Part shown: piece by piece, positions 15,642 through 64,000 of the stretch
Layout of the letters: every line of letters begins with the position of its first letter
How positions within the stretch are numbered: the first letter of the stretch is position 1
From: Branchiostoma floridae
Taxonomy: Eukaryota > Chordata > Leptocardii > Amphioxiformes > Branchiostomatidae
Assembly: GCF_000003815.2 (NCBI RefSeq)
Contig: NC_049991.1
Coordinates: 14,040,343 to 14,104,342 of the forward strand
Length of the DNA stretch: 64,000 bases
Direction of reading: 5' to 3'
Program-made: the position numbers and the translations under genes
The notes under the pieces: generated by a model
Databases searched by the model: none
What the model was told of the DNA's origin: nothing
The model's input: the letters and a program-made list of their open reading frames with translations, nothing else

Positions 15642-17442
15642 GTGGTTGACGCTTCCTTATCTCAGATAAACCAGTCTTTAACTCAGGTGTTAACTTTCGT
15701 GACGTGATAGTGCCCAACTGTAGGACCAGTAGAGTAACCCAAAAAGTTGACACGTAATGGCGTACGTGGTTGGCCCTGAGTAACATAAACATTACAAGTA
15801 TGTAAGCATAAAAGGGGTGGCTTTTGGAACCACATCACTCACGCTATTGCTTCACATTCCTAGGTGGTGATTCGGATCAAGGAAAACCCGATGGAAGTGA
15901 GGTTACTGGTGGTCGATCACGAGACAGACGACTACTACAAGAAGCAGGGAGTAACAGTGAAAGAGTCCATGGCTGCTGTGACCACGCCCGTTGCTGCTGA
16001 TCAAACACCTGAGCCACCTGTAGAAAATGGCGTGGACCATCCGGAACCCGCGCCGGAGCCGGCCCCCGTGGTGTCCCAGGCCCCGACCGAGGAGCCCCCC
16101 GCCCAGAGGGTAGCGGTGCCCCCCCACCTCGCCCCGCGCCTTTGCCACATTGCCAAGGGTGATTCAGGGTACGGCTTCAATCTCCATGGAGAGAAGGGAC
16201 ACAGAGGCCAGTTCATTCGCGCCATCGACGCCGGGTCTCCCGCCGAGGTAGCCGGACTCAAGGTTCAGGACAGGCTTGTTGAGGTTAGCAACCCCTCTTT
16301 TCCTGTTACAACTTTATGTTTCCATATGGACAAAATAGAGAGAGAGGAAGTCTCTCACAGTTATAATGAAGAGGAAATGAAATGCTGAAGCTGTAACACA
16401 ATATGTAGCCGCAGGCGTGTCGAGTACCAGCTGTAGTGTTTTCCGGTGACTCGCTGTTATTTTTTCTCCAACAAAAGCCTTGAAAACACATGTTACAATA
16501 TCCGCTCATGAGTTCAGAAAGTATTATCATACATCAAGTGTTAGTTTGTTGGGGACAACTTTATCATGACCCCACCCTACCCCCCTCCCCTTCGCCACCC
16601 AGGCGTATACAGGTGTCTTCCCAGGATACTGCCTGTGGACCGTATTGTATCAGATTACAGCAAGTATGTAAATGGTGTCAGGACACAAGTGTGTTAGGTG
16701 TAGTTAGGATTAGACTTAAAAGCAGAGGTGCCCGTGTGTGTTTTAAGTGGAAATGTACATGAGGGGGTGGTGTTTTTGCATTGTGTGCGTCCCTACATGA
16801 CTCGGATTACTAACATACCGAACCACTGACAAAAGCACGACCTCTCCCTTCTCACAGGTCAATGGCGAGAACATTGAATCACTCAAGCACGCCGAGGTCG
16901 TGGGCAAAATTAAGGAGGGTGGAAACGAAACAACATTGCTTGTCGTCGACAAGGAAAGCGACGCCTTCTTTCAGGAAAAGGGAGTCACCATCACGAAGGA
17001 ATATGTGGGCGGCACACCAGGGGTGAACGGAGATCCTGTAGTGGAGACCCCTCCCCCCACCCCACCCGCTGTAGAGGAGCCGGTGTCAGTCACCGAGGTG
17101 TCCTCTGCCCCTCCCGTCAACTCTCCAGTCTCCAGCCCCGACACGTCCTCTCCGGAACTCCCCCCTCCCCCAACCCCTGAGGAAACCCCCGCCCCCGTCG
17201 TCGACATCCCGCCCCCTCCCACGGAGGAACCCGAACCGATCCCCGAGCCCGTCGCCAACTCCACCCCCGAGCCTGAGCCCCAGTCCGCCCCCTCCCCCGC
17301 GAGCTCGCCCAGCGAAGACAGTGGTGTAGGAGACTTCACCATTGACCTGGCCACGGCGCGCCAGAAAGTCTTGAGCAAGAAAAAGGCCCGGCCGTCCCAA
17401 ATGAATTGGCAAAACAAGCACGAAATCTTCAATAACATGTAG
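15429..17442 (+). CDS. NHERF1: NHERF1/NHERF2-type scaffold, two PDZ domains plus ezrin-binding tail (complete)
   Basis: Join 15429-15641, 15864-16283 and 16858-17442, giving 405 residues; human NHERF1 and NHERF2 are about 340-360. PDZ1 spans about residues 9-93 and PDZ2 about 162-246. Their carboxylate loops are EYGF (20-23) and GYGF (173-176), each followed by xLHGEKG. Histidines at 69 and 222, at the start of helix alpha-B, mark class I PDZ domains. A Pro/Glu-rich linker follows PDZ2. The last 19 residues, [19 protein letters not shown], match the ERM (ezrin) FERM-binding tail, with W395 and F402 conserved. Family role: links apical transporters and receptors such as NHE3 to ezrin and actin at microvilli. 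The gene is likely a co-ortholog of both vertebrate paralogs, so the symbol is approximate. The longer linker accounts for the extra length. The first ATG of the open frame that precedes PDZ1 is used as start. Confidence 0.92.
15642..15863 (+). other. NHERF-like intron 1
   Basis: 222-bp phase 0 intron inside PDZ1, between the HQQ and VVIRI codons. No other feature is seen. Confidence 0.8.
15864..16283 (+). CDS. NHERF1: NHERF-like exon 2 (end of PDZ1, linker, start of PDZ2)
   Basis: The acceptor is cattcctag and the donor is gag|gttagc. The exon has 140 codons and is phase 0 at both ends. It opens [20 protein letters not shown], completing PDZ1, passes through a Pro/Glu/Val-rich linker, and ends with PDZ2 up to [13 protein letters not shown]2 carries a canonical [11 protein letters not shown] loop. 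The frame runs on past the donor into intron sequence without family similarity. Confidence 0.92.
16284..16857 (+). other. NHERF-like intron 2
   Basis: 574-bp phase 0 intron inside PDZ2, between LVE and VNGEN. Both PDZ domains are interrupted by a phase 0 intron close to the homologous strand/helix region (six codons apart in the alignment). This may reflect the ancestral duplication of a single PDZ unit. No other feature is seen. Confidence 0.8.
16858..17442 (+). CDS. NHERF1: NHERF-like exon 3 (end of PDZ2, proline-rich linker, ezrin-binding tail)
   Basis: The acceptor is cttctcacag. It opens [20 protein letters not shown], joining seamlessly to LVE of exon 2. A low-complexity Pro/Glu/Ser/Thr linker of about 110 residues follows, then [20 protein letters not shown] and the ERM-binding tail. 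TAG is at 17440-17442. The high C content of the linker creates long open frames on the opposite strand that are not genes. Confidence 0.92.
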   Translation, partial: VNGENIESLKHAEVVGKIKEGGNETTLLVVDKESDAFFQEKGVTITKEYVGGTPGVNGDPVVETPPPTPPAVEEPVSVTEVSSAPPVNSPVSSPDTSSPELPPPPTPEETPAPVVDIPPPPTEEPEPIPEPVANSTPEPEPQSAPSPASSPSEDSGVGDFTIDLATARQKVLSKKKARPSQMNWQNKHEIFNNM

Positions 17443-33529: not shown

Positions 33530-33668
33530 ATTTCTATTCTATTCTATTCTATTCTATTCTATTCTATTCTATTCTATTCTATTCTATTCTATTCTATTCT
33601 ATTCTATTCTATTCTATTCTTTCTATTCCATTCTATTCCTTTCAATTCTATTCTATCTTATTCCATTC
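33530..33668 (+). repeat. (ATTCT)n pentanucleotide microsatellite
   Basis: About 90 bp of pure ATTCT units, then degenerate ones to about 33668. The pure tract suggests recent expansion. Confidence 0.97.
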
Positions 33669-35891
33669 TATTCTTTTGCCTGTTTTAAAGATTCTTAAAC
33701 ATTTCTCAATACTTGGAAACTTTGATATGAAGGAGGATATTTGAATACATGACGAATTGGACTTTCGTGCGTGATACATGCAGGAAATGGCAAATCGTTA
33801 CGCGCCTTTTCATCTGCGCGCTTCTCACTCTAACAAATTAGTTGATAGCCCGTTCCTATTTCCTTTGCACCGTCTTCGCGGCAATCTCTATTCATGATTT
33901 CTACACCCGAAAGGAGATGCAGCGAAGATGACAAATTACCAGCCTCCTGCAAGTAAACGAAAGATTAGGGGTCATGAGCGGAAGGTTGGCTCCTCAACTC
34001 CCTGTCGAGTCGCCTCGTGCTTTAATTCTTCTGTCGTCTTTCCGCAAATTTTACACTTGACTGTTTGGCGCCTCGCCTGCCCCAGAAGCTACGCTACAAC
34101 TTGAATACTGAAGAATATACATTTTCCATCAAATCTTAGCGCTAAGAAGAAACCTTTCCATCGTCTGCCGTGTTTCAAAGCCAAATTCAGAACACAGAGA
34201 TAGCGCAGAACAAGGCAGTCAAGTTCATAAGTACCACATTATAATCAATTTTAAAGAAATGACTGAAACGAATCTGAAGTCAGATAATCTGCTCAGACAT
34301 TTCATTGATTTATCGGCGTTTTCTGTCGCACATATTTCTGGTCTGTAACTCCCAGTAATGAATAAAGAATTGAGAGGTCCTTCTAATATACTTTATGGTC
34401 TATTCATAGCCCACGCGGTGTCCTTTTCTTCACAGGAAAATGCTGACAACATGATTTTATTGATTAAGTCGTTGCGTAATGCTGTCCAGGGTCACTATGA
34501 TTAATTGCATTTTGAAGCGGGGACTACTGGGCATTAAAGCGGAGGCAACAGCCGGTGATGTGATTTATAAGCGTCGGTGGAAGGACGTAATAAACACTCT
34601 TTGGAGGAGGGATCCGGCAGGATGCGGGTACTAGAAAATACCTACGGAATCCCATGCCCCCTTAAGCTTGAAACATTTGGCAATTTGCGGGTGTGTAGAT
34701 TTTTGGACCTGCTAAAGGGAGGAAGACCTCGATGGCGTCCAGAGTCACTACTCTAACGCCAAGAGAATAAGAAGATTTCTTGTTTTACTTCTGAAGGCCT
34801 TCCTTGCTTGGGTCCATCTTCAATAATCTCTGAGCTGTCCGATGTACACTATGAAAGAAACTTTAGGGAAAACTCTGGAATCGGGCCAATTTCATTTCCT
34901 ACCATCTTTTGGGAACCTCACTGACACCTTCGATCTAACGTCCTGTCAGTGCCCCAACGTTTCCTCTTGCATTCAAAGGCCAATTGTGGAACTGCGGACA
35001 CACATGATTACAAACAAACACACATACCAACTGATTAAATTGGAGGTAACCAGGGTTTCTTTTAGGGGTTCTAAACTATCCAGAATGAGACCGAATTGAG
35101 ATTCCATAGGTCTGTCTTTCAAGTTGAATTTCAAGCATATTTTGACACGTATACCAAGTATACTTTACCTCTTCTTAAACTTGATAGCTTCTTCAAACTT
35201 CTTCTTGTACCCTACAGACTTTATCTATCCACTGCACACCTATGTATGCATACCACTCACGGTTAGTTTATCACCCTTAATCGAAATTTCATAACGTGAC
35301 GAGCTGGGCCCCCAGTGAAGCAATCTGAGGGTAGAATTTGAAAGACACCTTCAAGGAGCAGATCACGTGATCGTGAAGACTTGACTGAAGGCTGGCTCCA
35401 TTATTTGTTACCCACGGGGGTTCATTATGTCTGCAGTCTGGGGAACATCGACACAAGTTCGTTCTACTCTCTAATGAAAATTAACTTACCGATTGGTTAT
35501 TCCGTCATACCCTCCTGATTTAGAAAATGTGCCGGAATTTGACATGGGCCCTGTCATTTGTCACAGAAAGTGTTTCATCTTTAATTGCATTCATTCGTTT
35601 CCGATTAGAAAAGACATCGATGATTTGTTGAGGATATTGTCTCCTTGGACACGTTCGGTAATTTACAGATCACTCGTTGCGCATCCCGGTCGATCAGCCT
35701 TGTTTGGGGAACACTTGTGTGTGGATTCATCATCACCATACTGAAGAGGTGTCCTCCAGGCGCTCTCAGAATCCTCTCTCAGGGAACTGATTATGCGGGG
35801 GGGGGGGGGGGGGAGATTCGCTACTCGCCTTAAGAGTTCTCTTAGTCGTTGGAGAACCAAGAAATCTGAAAATCTCTAATGTTCATCAAGC

Positions 35892-51030: not shown

Positions 51031-51245
51031 GTAGTTATATCCACGAAAAATGGAGATATAGTTTTGGGTGTGTCTGTCTGTTTATCTGTTTGTGTTTCCG
51101 GATTTTTGTAGTCAGGATAACTCAATAACCTCTAAATGGATTAGGATGATAGTTGGCATGTGGGTAGGTGTTGGAAAGACAAAGGTCAAGGTCAATTTTG
51201 GGCCCCCTGGTGTGTGATCTTGGTACTGTAGCAGAATTTACTTTT
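51031..51245 (+). mobile_element. Fragment of the 4508-5583 repeat family (left part)
   Basis: tatatccacgaaaaatggag, tgtgtctgtctgtttatctg, aggataactcaataacctct and gggccccctggtgtgtgatc occur in the same order as at 4520-4710. Confidence 0.55.
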
Positions 51246-59885: not shown

Positions 59886-61701
59886 CACGAGAGTCTATTG
59901 TATTGCCGCATAAGATATGTTTGAACAACGCAACTACGAACAAATACCTGTTTGCGATATTTACTTTATGATTTAAGGCGCCCTCGAAACATTACTGTGT
60001 CCTGATACCGTTACTGTTGGCTTGTGACCCTTGACTTCGTGTACACGCAACACTTCTCATTATTCGTAACCTTTCGTTTGAAGTGTAGTGATGACACGAC
60101 GAAGAAGAAGAAGTTTGAAGTGTATTCTGCTGTCAACATAACGGTGACCGATAGAGGGCGCAGATGCACGAAGCCCTGCAGACACAGAGTAACCTGTATC
60201 AAAATAAAACAATTCAACTTCAGTTGAATCTTTTCCGTTCCAGACATTATCAAGTCATAAAACCCCGCATTCCACAGGAAAGAAAAGAAAAGGAAGAAAT
60301 TTTATCAATCTATGAAGCTTGTATAACATTGACAGTTGCTTATGTCCTTATGAAAAAGTGTTAAAACGACCTGTAAATTGACAAAATTCGTTTTTTTTTT
60401 CGGGAATAGGGAAAGCATGAAAGGCTGGCAAAGAGCTTTAGATTCTACAGGCTGATTTGGCTTTGATTTCGACAATGCAAGACATTTCACTAACAAAACA
60501 ATGGGGTTTTACGTATGGTATATTTCCTTCACGTTACCAACAGAAGTGGTTCTCCATGTAAATGGCAATTGCTGAAGGGCTACCACATGCATCCAAAATT
60601 CAATCGCATTTTGTGAAACAAGTAAACGTCGAACAAATACAATGGTGTTTTTGCTTGTTTGTCCACCAAGATTTTATCAATATGCCCATTTTTTCCTTCA
60701 ATAACTGTGGATCAGTTATCAGTGCAATATAACTTTGGACGCCTGGGGGAGCTGTTGGGTAGGCTGACTTTTTGGCCGAGTAGAATTAACGTTATAATTG
60801 TCGTTAGGTAGCATCAAGTCTTGTAACTCTAGATTCAAGAGCTAATGCGGCTGGGGTGAGGGTCACGGTTGGAAGAGAGAAATAAAAACTACACCTGGTT
60901 CAAAACTGTTTATTCAGTGACATTTATTGACACAATCTAGGAACACAAAGTGTACAGTATGTTGATCAGTTTGTACTTGTCATTTTCAAACCTTGATTAC
61001 AGAAATAGACTACAATTACCCAAATGAAAAGGACTTTTGATCTTAGTTTTCTTGAACAAGATGGCTTTTAACGACAAGGTGGCCAGTCTTGTACTAGAAT
61101 AGCCACAAAATACGCGAAATGTAAAGTGAGAACAAAAGACCTTCATGGAAGGAAGACACGGAAAGGATACAAGGCAAGAAACACATGAATTTGTACTATG
61201 TATAGCATAATATGTTGTGAACAAAGTCTACAGGCTACAGTCAAATCCAGACGCCATCAGAACACAGTACAATGTTTGACACTGTAAAAGTAAATTTTTT
61301 CTCGAACTGAGAAAGATGAGGAAAGATCAGTTTTTAATTGCGCTGATAGAAAAGCAAATCAATGCTACGGTACCGGTGCTTACAATACTCCACATAGATA
61401 CCAGAGGGTCGACATCGTTGTCTTCTAAAACAAAACAGTTGTTCTTAACATTCATAAGGTTGACATTGGCTCGTGAGCCAAATTTCTAAAAGACAAATTA
61501 AAGAAAGAAAAATGGCTGCAAGCAACCTTCTAACTTAGACTTAGGGGCTCCCGTGTCGTCCGACGTTACACCATAAGTTGACAACACTAGCATAGATACA
61601 TGCTAAAGCTTTCGGGTACACTTTCTTGACACCAACAAAGAGATTCCCATCAGTCCTGCCGACAATGTCTCAGGTAGATAAAGAGAATTGTAAGCCGTTG
61701 A

Positions 61702-61949: not shown

Positions 61950-61984
61950 TTCAAGACGATGGTCTGGGGAAGCAATCAAACGCG

Positions 61985-62285
61985 TGCCCACCTCGGGTGA
62001 AAAAGATTACTCTGTGATTGGTCAAGAAATCAATCAATTGTCTAGACTGAGTCTAGACGAGCCCCTGTCTGGTTGTTCTGTCTGAAGCCGCGTGCCGAAC
62101 ACAGGTGAAAAAGATTACTGGTCTGTGATTGGTCAAAAAATCAATCATTTGGCTAGACCGGGCCAATCGTAGACGAGCCCATGTCTGGTTGTTATGCACA
62201 CAGGTGAAAAAGATTACTGGTCTGTGATTGGTAAAGAAATCAATCAATTGTCTAAACCGGGCCAATCGTAGACGAGCCCTGTGTA
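61985..62285 (+). repeat. Three tandem ~100-bp units carrying CCAAT-type motifs
   Basis: The units start with ggtgaaaaagattac at 61996, 62104 and 62203 (periods 108 and 99). Each contains tctgtgattggt (inverse CCAAT), aatcaatca-ttg and gacgagccc. Units 2 and 3 also contain gggccaatcgtag (direct CCAAT). Reading frames over it are artefacts. Confidence 0.85.
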
Positions 62286-62546
62286 TATCTGTTTGAAGCC
62301 CCTGTACCTCGTCATTAGTCTTCCAGGTGTGTGTGGAGACGGCCTCACCTCGCAGCACGACCGCTGTGTGACTGGGTCCTTTCTACTTTGAGCGTCCTAC
62401 CTAAGACAACAGGTTAGTTCGGTCATTTCTTCGCAGAAAATTTGATCATAATTTCTCATACACATTATTATCTGTGCCTTGTGTGTTTGTTGCGGCGGTG
62501 TTGAGGCAACGTATGCATGACTGTTTGTTCTACCGATTTGTTAGAA

Positions 62547-62682
62547 ATGTCTCGACGCCATGAGGGAGGAAAGGAGCGGGGGAACAGAGGTGTCAATCGC
62601 CTGTCACTGAAGGTGCTTCGGGACAACATCCAGTGTATCACCAAGCCAAGGGCGCATGCAGTCTTTCCGAGACATTCGACAA
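62547..62682 (+). pseudogene. Histone H4-derived 5' fragment, copy 1
   Basis: From ATG 62547 the frame reads MSRRHEGGKERGNRG, then KVLRDNIQCITKP. It aligns with the H4 N-terminus through the highly conserved KVLRDNIQGITKP block, with one extra codon before K-V-L and many substitutions. After ITKP similarity is lost, and the segment ends ttcgacaag|gtattg, which looks like a splice donor. The globular histone fold is missing, so it cannot be a working H4. It is either a decayed gene fragment or an H4-derived exon. Confidence 0.7.
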
Positions 62683-63049
62683 GGTATTGTGTTGTTTTAC
62701 ATTGTGTAAAAAACAGTTTTGGTGTAGTAATCTTTAGCTGGCATTTTCAAAGCCTGGTCCTGAACAATGCTTGTTCAAACAGTCCAATGTAATATAAATA
62801 ATCGGTAACGTTAACACTGAATTCTTTTGTGACCGTCCGAGGATGCAAAAAACAGAACAAACTACATTTACATGTGAGGCATCCCTGTGCCTTATTTATC
62901 ACCAAAACAACAAGACATTAGTCTGAACCTTATTCACTTTCTTTCTTCTAGGATCTTACTGGTGCCATCAAGCCCGGATCAACTGCAGCTGCAATGTTCA
63001 AGTTAAGTGCTTAATAATATGTCTTATGGGGTTTGAAATGGTAATGGTT

Positions 63050-63540
63050 GCAGATATGGACTCCTTTTGCATTCAGGGCTTCAGTCCGTTTCCGTGGTGT
63101 ACAGGCCTGGTGTGTGGCTGGTTTGGTTTCTGTGACTGTGTCGATAGTCTAGATGGATTCGGCGTTACTGTAAATTCTGCTGTTTCTTAGTAAACAGGGT
63201 TTTCCCTGGTTCACCATCTGTTGTCATTTCTGTTTTATGTCATGGTCAGTGGTTTTCGGGGACCTAGACCATTACATAAGCTGCCTCGTGTCGTTTTCTT
63301 GGGTCCCGAACCAAGAGGACGACACAGGCCAGAAAGAAACACAGGTGGTTGAACAGTCTATTTAATATTAGTAGTTTATTCCTTTAGAACAAGGACGTTA
63401 TATCAGCTATAACGTCCTTGTTTAGAAATACTCGACATCTCGGCGTCGACACAGTCACAGAAACCGAATCAGCCATTCATTGGGCTTGTACACCACAGAA
63501 ACAGACTGAAGCAATGAGTGCAGAAGTAGCCATATATAGC
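63050..63540. mobile_element. ~490-bp nested foldback between the H4 fragments
   Basis: The outer arms 63068-63144 and 63446-63522 pair imperfectly (for example ggtttctgtgactgtgtcga and its inverse). An inner hairpin lies at 63281-63327 (gtcgttttcttggg / accaagaggacgac), and a perfect 14-bp palindrome at 63391-63423 (ACAAGGACGTTATA, 5-base loop, inverse). No clear target duplication was found. Confidence 0.65.
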
Positions 63541-63646
63541 TCTCGAAATTTAAACTGAAGTTCTTAACTATATTTCTGAGCCAAGTTTAATCTTTGTCTC
63601 GTTTTTTCTTTCTTTCTACCGAGGATCATTGCACCGTACGAGGAAG

Positions 63647-63745
63647 TGTCTGGACAGGGAAAGGGAGGCGAGGACTGGTGAGGGAAGGTACCGGACGTGA
63701 CCGACTGGGGATTCGCAGTCTTCCCACACATATGACAAGGTATCT
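63647..63745 (+). pseudogene. Histone H4-derived 5' fragment, copy 2 (frameshifted)
   Basis: tgtctggacagggaaaggga matches the start of H4 (SGxGKGG) with GTG in place of the start ATG. A one-base deletion near 63665 shifts the frame, after which ctggtgagggaaggtaccgg and acgtgaccga follow the GLGKGGAKRHR codons. The fragment ends atatgacaag|gtatct, like copy 1. It is too broken to encode protein. Confidence 0.6.
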
Positions 63746-63949
63746 ATTGTGTGAAAGCACAAAGTTTTTAATTGTAAGATAACAGCCTTTGTGTTTGGTA
63801 AGTTTAAGATTACAGTTTCAATTTCAATTTTGTTACCTAAACGATAATAAGCTCAGTATAAAAGTCTTTTTTCTTTTACTTCCTTATCTGACTCTGAATT
63901 GAATGAAGTATATGAATACTTTTGTATTACGGTTTGACTGTTTGTCAAG

Positions 63950-64000
63950 TTTGGTCTTAATTTCTCATAAACATTCTTTTCTGTGCCTTGTGTGTTTGTT
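63950..64000 (+). repeat. Start of a further repeat of the H4-fragment leader (cut by window end)
   Basis: taatttctcataaacattct and tctgtgccttgtgtgtttgtt match 62451-62491, the leader just upstream of H4 fragment copy 1, where that sequence lies about 75 bases before the ATG. Confidence 0.7.

Follow-up and report, generated by a model that had tools for sequence, protein, structure and literature searches.

Captured histone H4 5' fragments in a dispersed, partly transposon-borne foldback cassette of the Branchiostoma floridae genome

The stretch of DNA analysed in this study (the window; 64,000 nucleotides, C13:14040343-14104342) lies within the 513-Mb, 431-contig genome of Branchiostoma floridae. 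Its right end contains two diverged pieces of the 5' part of a histone H4 gene, both in the forward (+) orientation. The first (H4 fragment type 1, 62545..62683, +) is composed of an ATG at position 62547, codons 1 to about 33 and a tail; it is preceded by a leader (62438..62544, +) ending in the acceptor-like sequence TTTGTTAG, with AG at 62543-62544, and followed by a donor GT at 62684-62685. The second (H4 fragment type 2, 63624..63739, +) comprises part of the 5' untranslated region (UTR) and codons 1 to about 24, placed between an acceptor AG (63622-63623) and a donor GT (63740-63741). The initial annotation had recognised both pieces and a donor-like site behind each of them. The donor sites are present, but they shift from 62682 and 63738 to the GTs at 62684 and 63740; likewise, the second H4 piece is real, but its start codon is degenerate (GTG at 63646, where ATG is expected). 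The ends of the two copies, described as matching, are indeed related (TTCCGAGACATTCGACAAGGTAT / TTCCCACACATATGACAAGGTAT; 83% identity).

The H4 origin of the pieces at 62547 and 63646 was confirmed by phmmer, a codon scan and family profiles. With phmmer, the open frame starting at 62547 aligned to residues 1-40 of H4 (best E 3e-4). When both strands were scanned with degenerate codons, the two pieces came out on top, with hits ending at 62648 (55.2) and 63704 (32.9); the third-ranked place in the window reached 26.7, and twelve 32-kb Markov controls gave at most 25.6. Taken alone, copy 2 is a weak H4 match. The type-2 family profile matches all four real H4 genes supplied (best E 7.5e-11), including the 5' UTR in two of them (L033 and L035), and in L033 it spans from the 5' UTR to about codon 24; the match of the type-1 family profile to the four supplied genes begins at the ATG and extends to codon 33 (best E 3.3e-17). 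Since the codon scan ranks both pieces top and the family profiles match real H4 genes, both are H4-derived, and what was captured is the 5' part of a replication-type H4 gene. Full-length H4 genes reside elsewhere in the genome: of 34 protein matches, 23 cover the whole of H4 (residues 1-103) with 99-100% identity. We also observed an H4-like gene in two pieces (C5:15632300-15633071; residues 1-64 at 97%, then residues 36-103 at 71%), which is perhaps an intron-split or duplicated H4.

The start of the type-1 leader recurs at 63947..64000 (+), in agreement with the third leader previously noted near 63950. This segment is 89% identical to 62438-62491 and ends at the window edge, to the right of which the assembly is N for 10,000 bases. 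The third H4 fragment that had been predicted there is present on the near-identical unplaced contig C272 (98% identical to the window over 62741-64000, and 96-98% over much of 61950-64000), on which the leader continues into a unit with 86% identity over 62438-62772. The H4 piece of this third unit aligns with the other H4 pieces and keeps its donor GT. Elsewhere in the window, exons of an NHERF-like PDZ protein, which also has an EBP50 C-terminal domain (Pfam PDZ, EBP50_C), lie at 15864-17442 (+), and a TTCTA pentanucleotide array of 28.8 copies occupies 33532-33674.

The H4 pieces of the window belong to one copy of a dispersed repeat cassette and not to a local array. The genome search with the unit 62440-62700, suggested in the initial annotation, revealed 43 pieces with an identity of 72-100%; of 86 candidates, 40 were scored, and some rows are parts of one copy. 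In the case of the foldback described below (63054-63536), 40 copies were scored among 166 candidates (98 matching pieces), the 58 further short matches being mostly arm on arm. Together, the unit and the foldback touch 17 of the contigs C1-C19 (not C4 or C11) as well as some small contigs. Nineteen larger loci (L010-L028) were compared and are referred to as group 1 (the window, C272 and the copies on C10 and C12), group 2 (L013-L020) and group 3 (L021-L028). The order of blocks in group 1 is P, E0, H4 type 1, E2, foldback, H4 type 2, H4 type 1, E2, foldback. The initial term "tandem array" is correct in so far as the units are repeated, but it understates the structure, because two unit types alternate with the foldback in between; the genome-wide dispersal, the foldback and its strand-specific pairing had been missed. 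In groups 2 and 3, no type-1 unit stands ahead of the first foldback, and E0 is additionally missing from group 2. Block P was found in two of the eight group-3 loci. Some loci contain parts of the cassette more than once.

Block P consists of CCAAT-rich repeats. In the window it is represented by three tandem CCAAT/ATTGG-bearing repeats (repeat family D1; 61981..62300, +) of promoter-like character, which may have served as a promoter. The left part of the repeat (60837..61701, no strand assigned) matches the C12 copy (82% over 60837-61694), and from about position 60888 it is also common to the copies on C7 (L019) and C2 (L020). Read on the - strand, this left part looks like the 3' end of a gene (AATAAA), and a - strand gene would fit this appearance. 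The block 60888-61690 was rejected as a gene, given that its C12 copy shows short frames only, and the segment 60888-63560 had no match in a phage collection. On their right side, the group-2 copies carry a minisatellite with a period near 43/86 bp (e.g. L013 6603-7302), beyond which further sequence is common to L014/L020 and to L015/L017; beside one group-2 copy, a frame resembling by eye the last exon of an SLC22-type transporter was observed (L019 8711-9031, -).

The H4 pieces are bordered by splice-like signals across the family. An acceptor AG precedes all 27 type-1 and all 8 type-2 pieces (column counts), and a donor GT follows 31 of the 34 pieces with letters at this site (one further piece has a gap), although the copies are related and these counts are not independent events. 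In the same alignment the mean majority fraction is 0.84 over 199 columns, 30 of them invariant. Two further exon-like blocks accompany the H4 pieces. E0 (62335..62412, +) ends in ACAACAG and is followed by GTTAGT, with a donor GT at 62413 that was kept in 10 of 10 sequences recovered; by eye it resembles an H4 5' UTR, but an H4 match by profile was not obtained and this assignment was dropped. E2 (50 nt, 62952..63001, +) lies between an acceptor AG (62950-62951) and a donor GT (63002-63003). Among 39 aligned copies, an acceptor-like AG is present in 38 and a donor-like GTTAAGT/GTTGAGT in 18, and the copies without the donor-like motif run on into different sequence. In groups 2 and 3, identity amounts to 86-87% in the 50-bp bin of E2, compared with 59-74% in the two adjacent bins of the same size. 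E2 was also considered as a TMEM14 exon and rejected (the TMEM14 Pfam family has one genome match, located elsewhere), and its peptide gave no PDB or Pfam match. With AG at 35 of 35 H4 pieces, GT at 31 of 34, and the additional splice-like blocks E0 and E2, the initial suggestion that these pieces are exonised fragments appears plausible.

The cassette is not a histone gene, and H4 coding function has been lost in most of its pieces. This analysis concerned 35 aligned H4 pieces, hand-picked from 77 match rows, short or partial ones being left out. A stop codon occurs between the start position and the donor in 27 of them, the ATG is kept in 20, and an intact 103-aa H4 frame was found neither in the window nor in any of the 35. 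At codon positions 1, 2 and 3, variable columns amounted to 9/33, 7/33 and 9/34 in group 1, to 10/33, 13/33 and 9/34 in group 2, to 16/34, 14/34 and 10/33 in group 3, and to 6/24, 6/24 and 8/23 in type 2, i.e. with no third-position excess in any of these sets. Compared with the real H4 gene, the pieces differ more often at third positions, a pattern to be expected of copies derived from a working H4 gene. The stops in 27 of 35 pieces and the similar variation of all codon positions support the earlier proposal of an amplified pseudogene.

The foldback placed between the two H4 unit types (63054..63536, +; about 480 bp, with inner hairpins) is conserved and pairs better as + strand RNA. Its arms lie at 63061-63144 and 63446-63529. 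The predicted fold of 63044-63545 has an energy of -265 kcal/mol (z -21). Strand preference was examined in 22 complete copies among 46 pieces. In a DNA-symmetric alignment of the arms, these copies show 212 G.T, 42 A.C and 89 other oppositions; the foldback of the window alone has 10, 2 and 6, respectively, and one inner hairpin of the foldback gave 53 G.T and 24 A.C. One-step changes, scored in 18 of the 22 copies (alignment A1), comprise 36 that keep G.U, 6 A.C and 16 transversions, and those keeping G.U fall on both arms (20 and 16). The folding energy is better on the + than on the - strand in all 22 copies (mean -203.9 vs -165.0). Structures predicted with RNA energies favour G.U, a fault of which the DNA-symmetric arm test is free. 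Two-sided compensation is weak (3 pairs, equalled or exceeded by 115 of 500 shuffles).

Control inverted repeats gave different proportions. The six rows outside the L011 satellite, four of which overlap in one L010 region, contain 24 G.T and 34 A.C, and the satellite itself (15 of the 21 control rows) contains 226 G.T and 387 A.C. When four control repeats were folded both ways, two slightly favoured the - strand, one slightly the + strand and one strongly the + strand (L010 645-2499, N removed and cut to 1,400 bases; -891.7 vs -780.1). A tally over family arms (53 G.T, 46 A.C) mixes both locus orientations and was not used. At the gathering score, Rfam yielded no match in the window; within 62300-64000 it gave three weak matches (best E 0.89). 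The foldback loop contains a 35-bp near-perfect palindrome (63388-63422), which the window and C272 copies possess and the other 20 aligned copies lack.

The + strand pairing bias is in line with transcription of an RNA in the same orientation as the H4 pieces. The G.U excess could alternatively stem from a mutation bias between strands that is linked to transcription, which likewise needs the + strand to be transcribed.

Ends resembling those of HINEs (non-autonomous Helentron-type transposons) were found in a young subset of the family, represented by 8-10-kb copies of the L022/L026 type. Common ends were identified by comparison of the copies on C7 (L022) and C16 (L026), which are about 94% identical. 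The same left end is present at four loci with unrelated flanks (C7, C16, C8 and C5) and the same right end at three (C7, C16 and C9); no end was detected where the right ends of L050 (C5) and L051 (C8) and the left end of L056 (C9) had been predicted. Target-site duplications are absent from the sites at which both ends were read (C7, C16 and a 246-bp element on C2). The left flank carries runs of 4-7 T, and on the right the terminal CTTAT is followed by T in the C7, C16 and C9 copies and by C in two short C2 copies. The ends contain an 8-bp inverted repeat (TGGCGACG / CGTCGCCA), whose distance is 3-4 nt on the 5' side and about 28 nt on the 3' side. A palindrome of 8 bp (TGGCAATA..TATTGCCA) lies 7-8 nt from the 3' end. 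With up to 3 mismatches, the 3' end was found at 140 places in the genome and the 5' end at 798, compared with 0 for reversed-pattern controls. Ends paired on the same strand, hand-picked from part of the 100 listed places per end, delimit spans of 246 bp to 9.9 kb and three longer ones (10.3, 15.3 and 18.8 kb; the first and last of these skip a nearer end). Paired spans on C7 (the longer of two), C1, C14, C17 and C262 bracket H4 matches.

In the 246-bp C2 element, the left module is 87% and the right module 90% identical to its counterpart in the 9.3-kb C7 copy, and no H4 match is present; the 247-bp neighbour of this element has flanking sequence in common with it. In the young subset, the cassette is accordingly cargo between HINE modules and is carried inside HINE-like elements. 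Searches of the window for the HINE 5' end (20 bases, allowing 4 mismatches) and 3' end (35 bases, allowing 8) found neither, the sequence to the right being N. Such ends are also absent from the compared stretches of C272, C10, C12, group 2 and the other group-3 loci, not all of which reach far out, and the C10 and C12 copies have a different right edge in common. Therefore the vehicle of the window's copy and of most others is unproven, and the initial idea of a transposable-element passenger is borne out in the young subset but so far not in the copy of the window. The Helitron_like_N domain has 79 matches in the genome, 21 of them in open frames longer than 1,900 aa, none tied to the HINE ends. 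A protein-coding transposon was considered and rejected, as L017-L020 contain no frame longer than 200 aa (proteins split into short exons would escape this search). Several related observations were made: a 147-bp segment of the window without H4 (51065-51211) is 88% identical to an inner part of the L022 element; a 928-bp insertion in L022 (2824-3752) is missing from the 94% identical C16 copy; and a frame that by eye is reverse-transcriptase-like was noted roughly 450 bp left of this insertion (about L022 1960-2380).

HINEs are characterised by the lack of a target-site duplication, T-rich insertion sites with T on both sides, and a 3' palindrome of 8-35 bp; their subterminal inverted repeats (subTIRs) are given as 12-15 bp, placed 2-4 nt from the 5' end and 38-60 bp from the 3' end (PMC4067079). 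The young subset resembles the HINE/DINE-1 group (PMC4067079, PMC7492417) in that no target duplication was seen, in having an inverted repeat 3-4 nt from the 5' end and a 3' palindrome, and also in its internal tandem repeats, the absence of proteins and the short H4-free relatives with the same ends. It is for the young subset, and not for the window's copy, that this likeness is shown. The young subset differs in its size (8-10 kb), in bearing a foldback cassette with H4 and splice signals, and in its inverted repeat, which is 8 bp long instead of 11-15 and whose distance from the 3' end is about 28 nt compared with 38-60. In the platyfish, an SGNH hydrolase gene is reported to have been captured and spread by a Helitron (PMC4021074); the two cases are alike in that host gene sequence was mobilised by a rolling-circle transposon in a chordate, but here only a broken histone 5' piece is involved and not a working gene. 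No account of the present H4/foldback family appears among the titles and abstract openings listed by searches of an open-licence literature library.

Three further explanations of the family have to be weighed. Histone orphons are dispersed histone pseudogenes of the sea urchin, and the present pieces resemble them in being solitary and located away from histone clusters. The family might be a plain orphon or pseudogene family, multiplied mainly by segmental duplication and decaying neutrally, with the splice-like ends and the hairpin as by-products. The stops in 27 of 35 pieces agree with this view, as does the failure to find ends shared by groups 1 and 2; moreover, the C1 and C7 copies have flanking sequence in common beyond the element, so segmental duplication also acts. 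In contrast to orphons, however, the H4 pieces are multi-copy and occur in a recurring cassette with a foldback and, in part, with transposon ends. Arguments against this explanation, which we consider unlikely, are the sharply defined ends that copies of the young subset have in common despite unrelated flanks, the retention of splice dinucleotides beyond the average of the alignment columns, and the strand-specific pairing of the foldback.

The second explanation regards the foldback as an independent miniature inverted-repeat transposon, inserted once and then copied along, whose pairing reflects a palindromic origin only. Such an element would be in keeping with the terminal inverted arms and with the further diverged foldback pieces present elsewhere in some loci (L017, L019, L020). 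A DNA palindrome should, however, give about equal numbers of G.T and A.C oppositions, whereas the arms have 212 and 42, and the six control rows outside the L011 satellite gave 24 and 34; this account also seems improbable. That the cassette is a functional protein gene with H4-like exons encoding short peptides can practically be dismissed: the first copy in the window is open from ATG 62547 through the donor and belongs, with that of C272, to the 8 of 35 pieces without a stop before the donor, but the other 27 have stops, codon positions vary alike, and E2 has neither a codon-phase bias nor a peptide match in Pfam or PDB.

The reading we favour, and regard as reasonably probable, is that of a decayed, partly transposon-borne and probably spliced non-coding hairpin-RNA cassette with captured H4 5' fragments. 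The cassette combines captured H4 5' pieces, set between splice-like signals, with promoter-like repeats and a large foldback. The cassette would be, or would once have been, transcribed from the CCAAT-rich block, and the transcript spliced through E0, H4 and E2; its product would be a hairpin RNA, possibly a substrate of Dicer. The HINEs of the young subset were presumably moved by Rep/helicase proteins encoded elsewhere in the genome. Most likely, the H4 piece is only a passenger or a non-coding exon.

Drosophila hairpin-RNA (hpRNA) loci are reported to give rise to endo-siRNAs (PMC10292708). In structure and strand bias, the cassette resembles hpRNA loci through its long inverted repeat, which here is predicted to pair better as one-strand RNA; it differs from them in that the H4 piece lies outside the hairpin. 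A stronger form of the favoured reading, i.e. a transcribed and functional family of spliced hairpin-RNA genes, combining the H4 5' end with a selected foldback of about 480 nt and multiplied partly in Helentrons, seems doubtful to us; if true, it would represent a family of regulatory RNAs borne by transposons and containing an exon of histone origin.

Part of an H4 gene has been caught in a repeat which, in some copies, is carried by a rolling-circle transposon family, and the adjacent hairpin appears to have been shaped by evolution at the level of RNA and not of DNA. As a caution, "H4-like" matches in the B. floridae genome can be passengers. If the cassette is transcribed, its many natural copies would permit testing of how transposons convert pieces of host genes into RNA exons.
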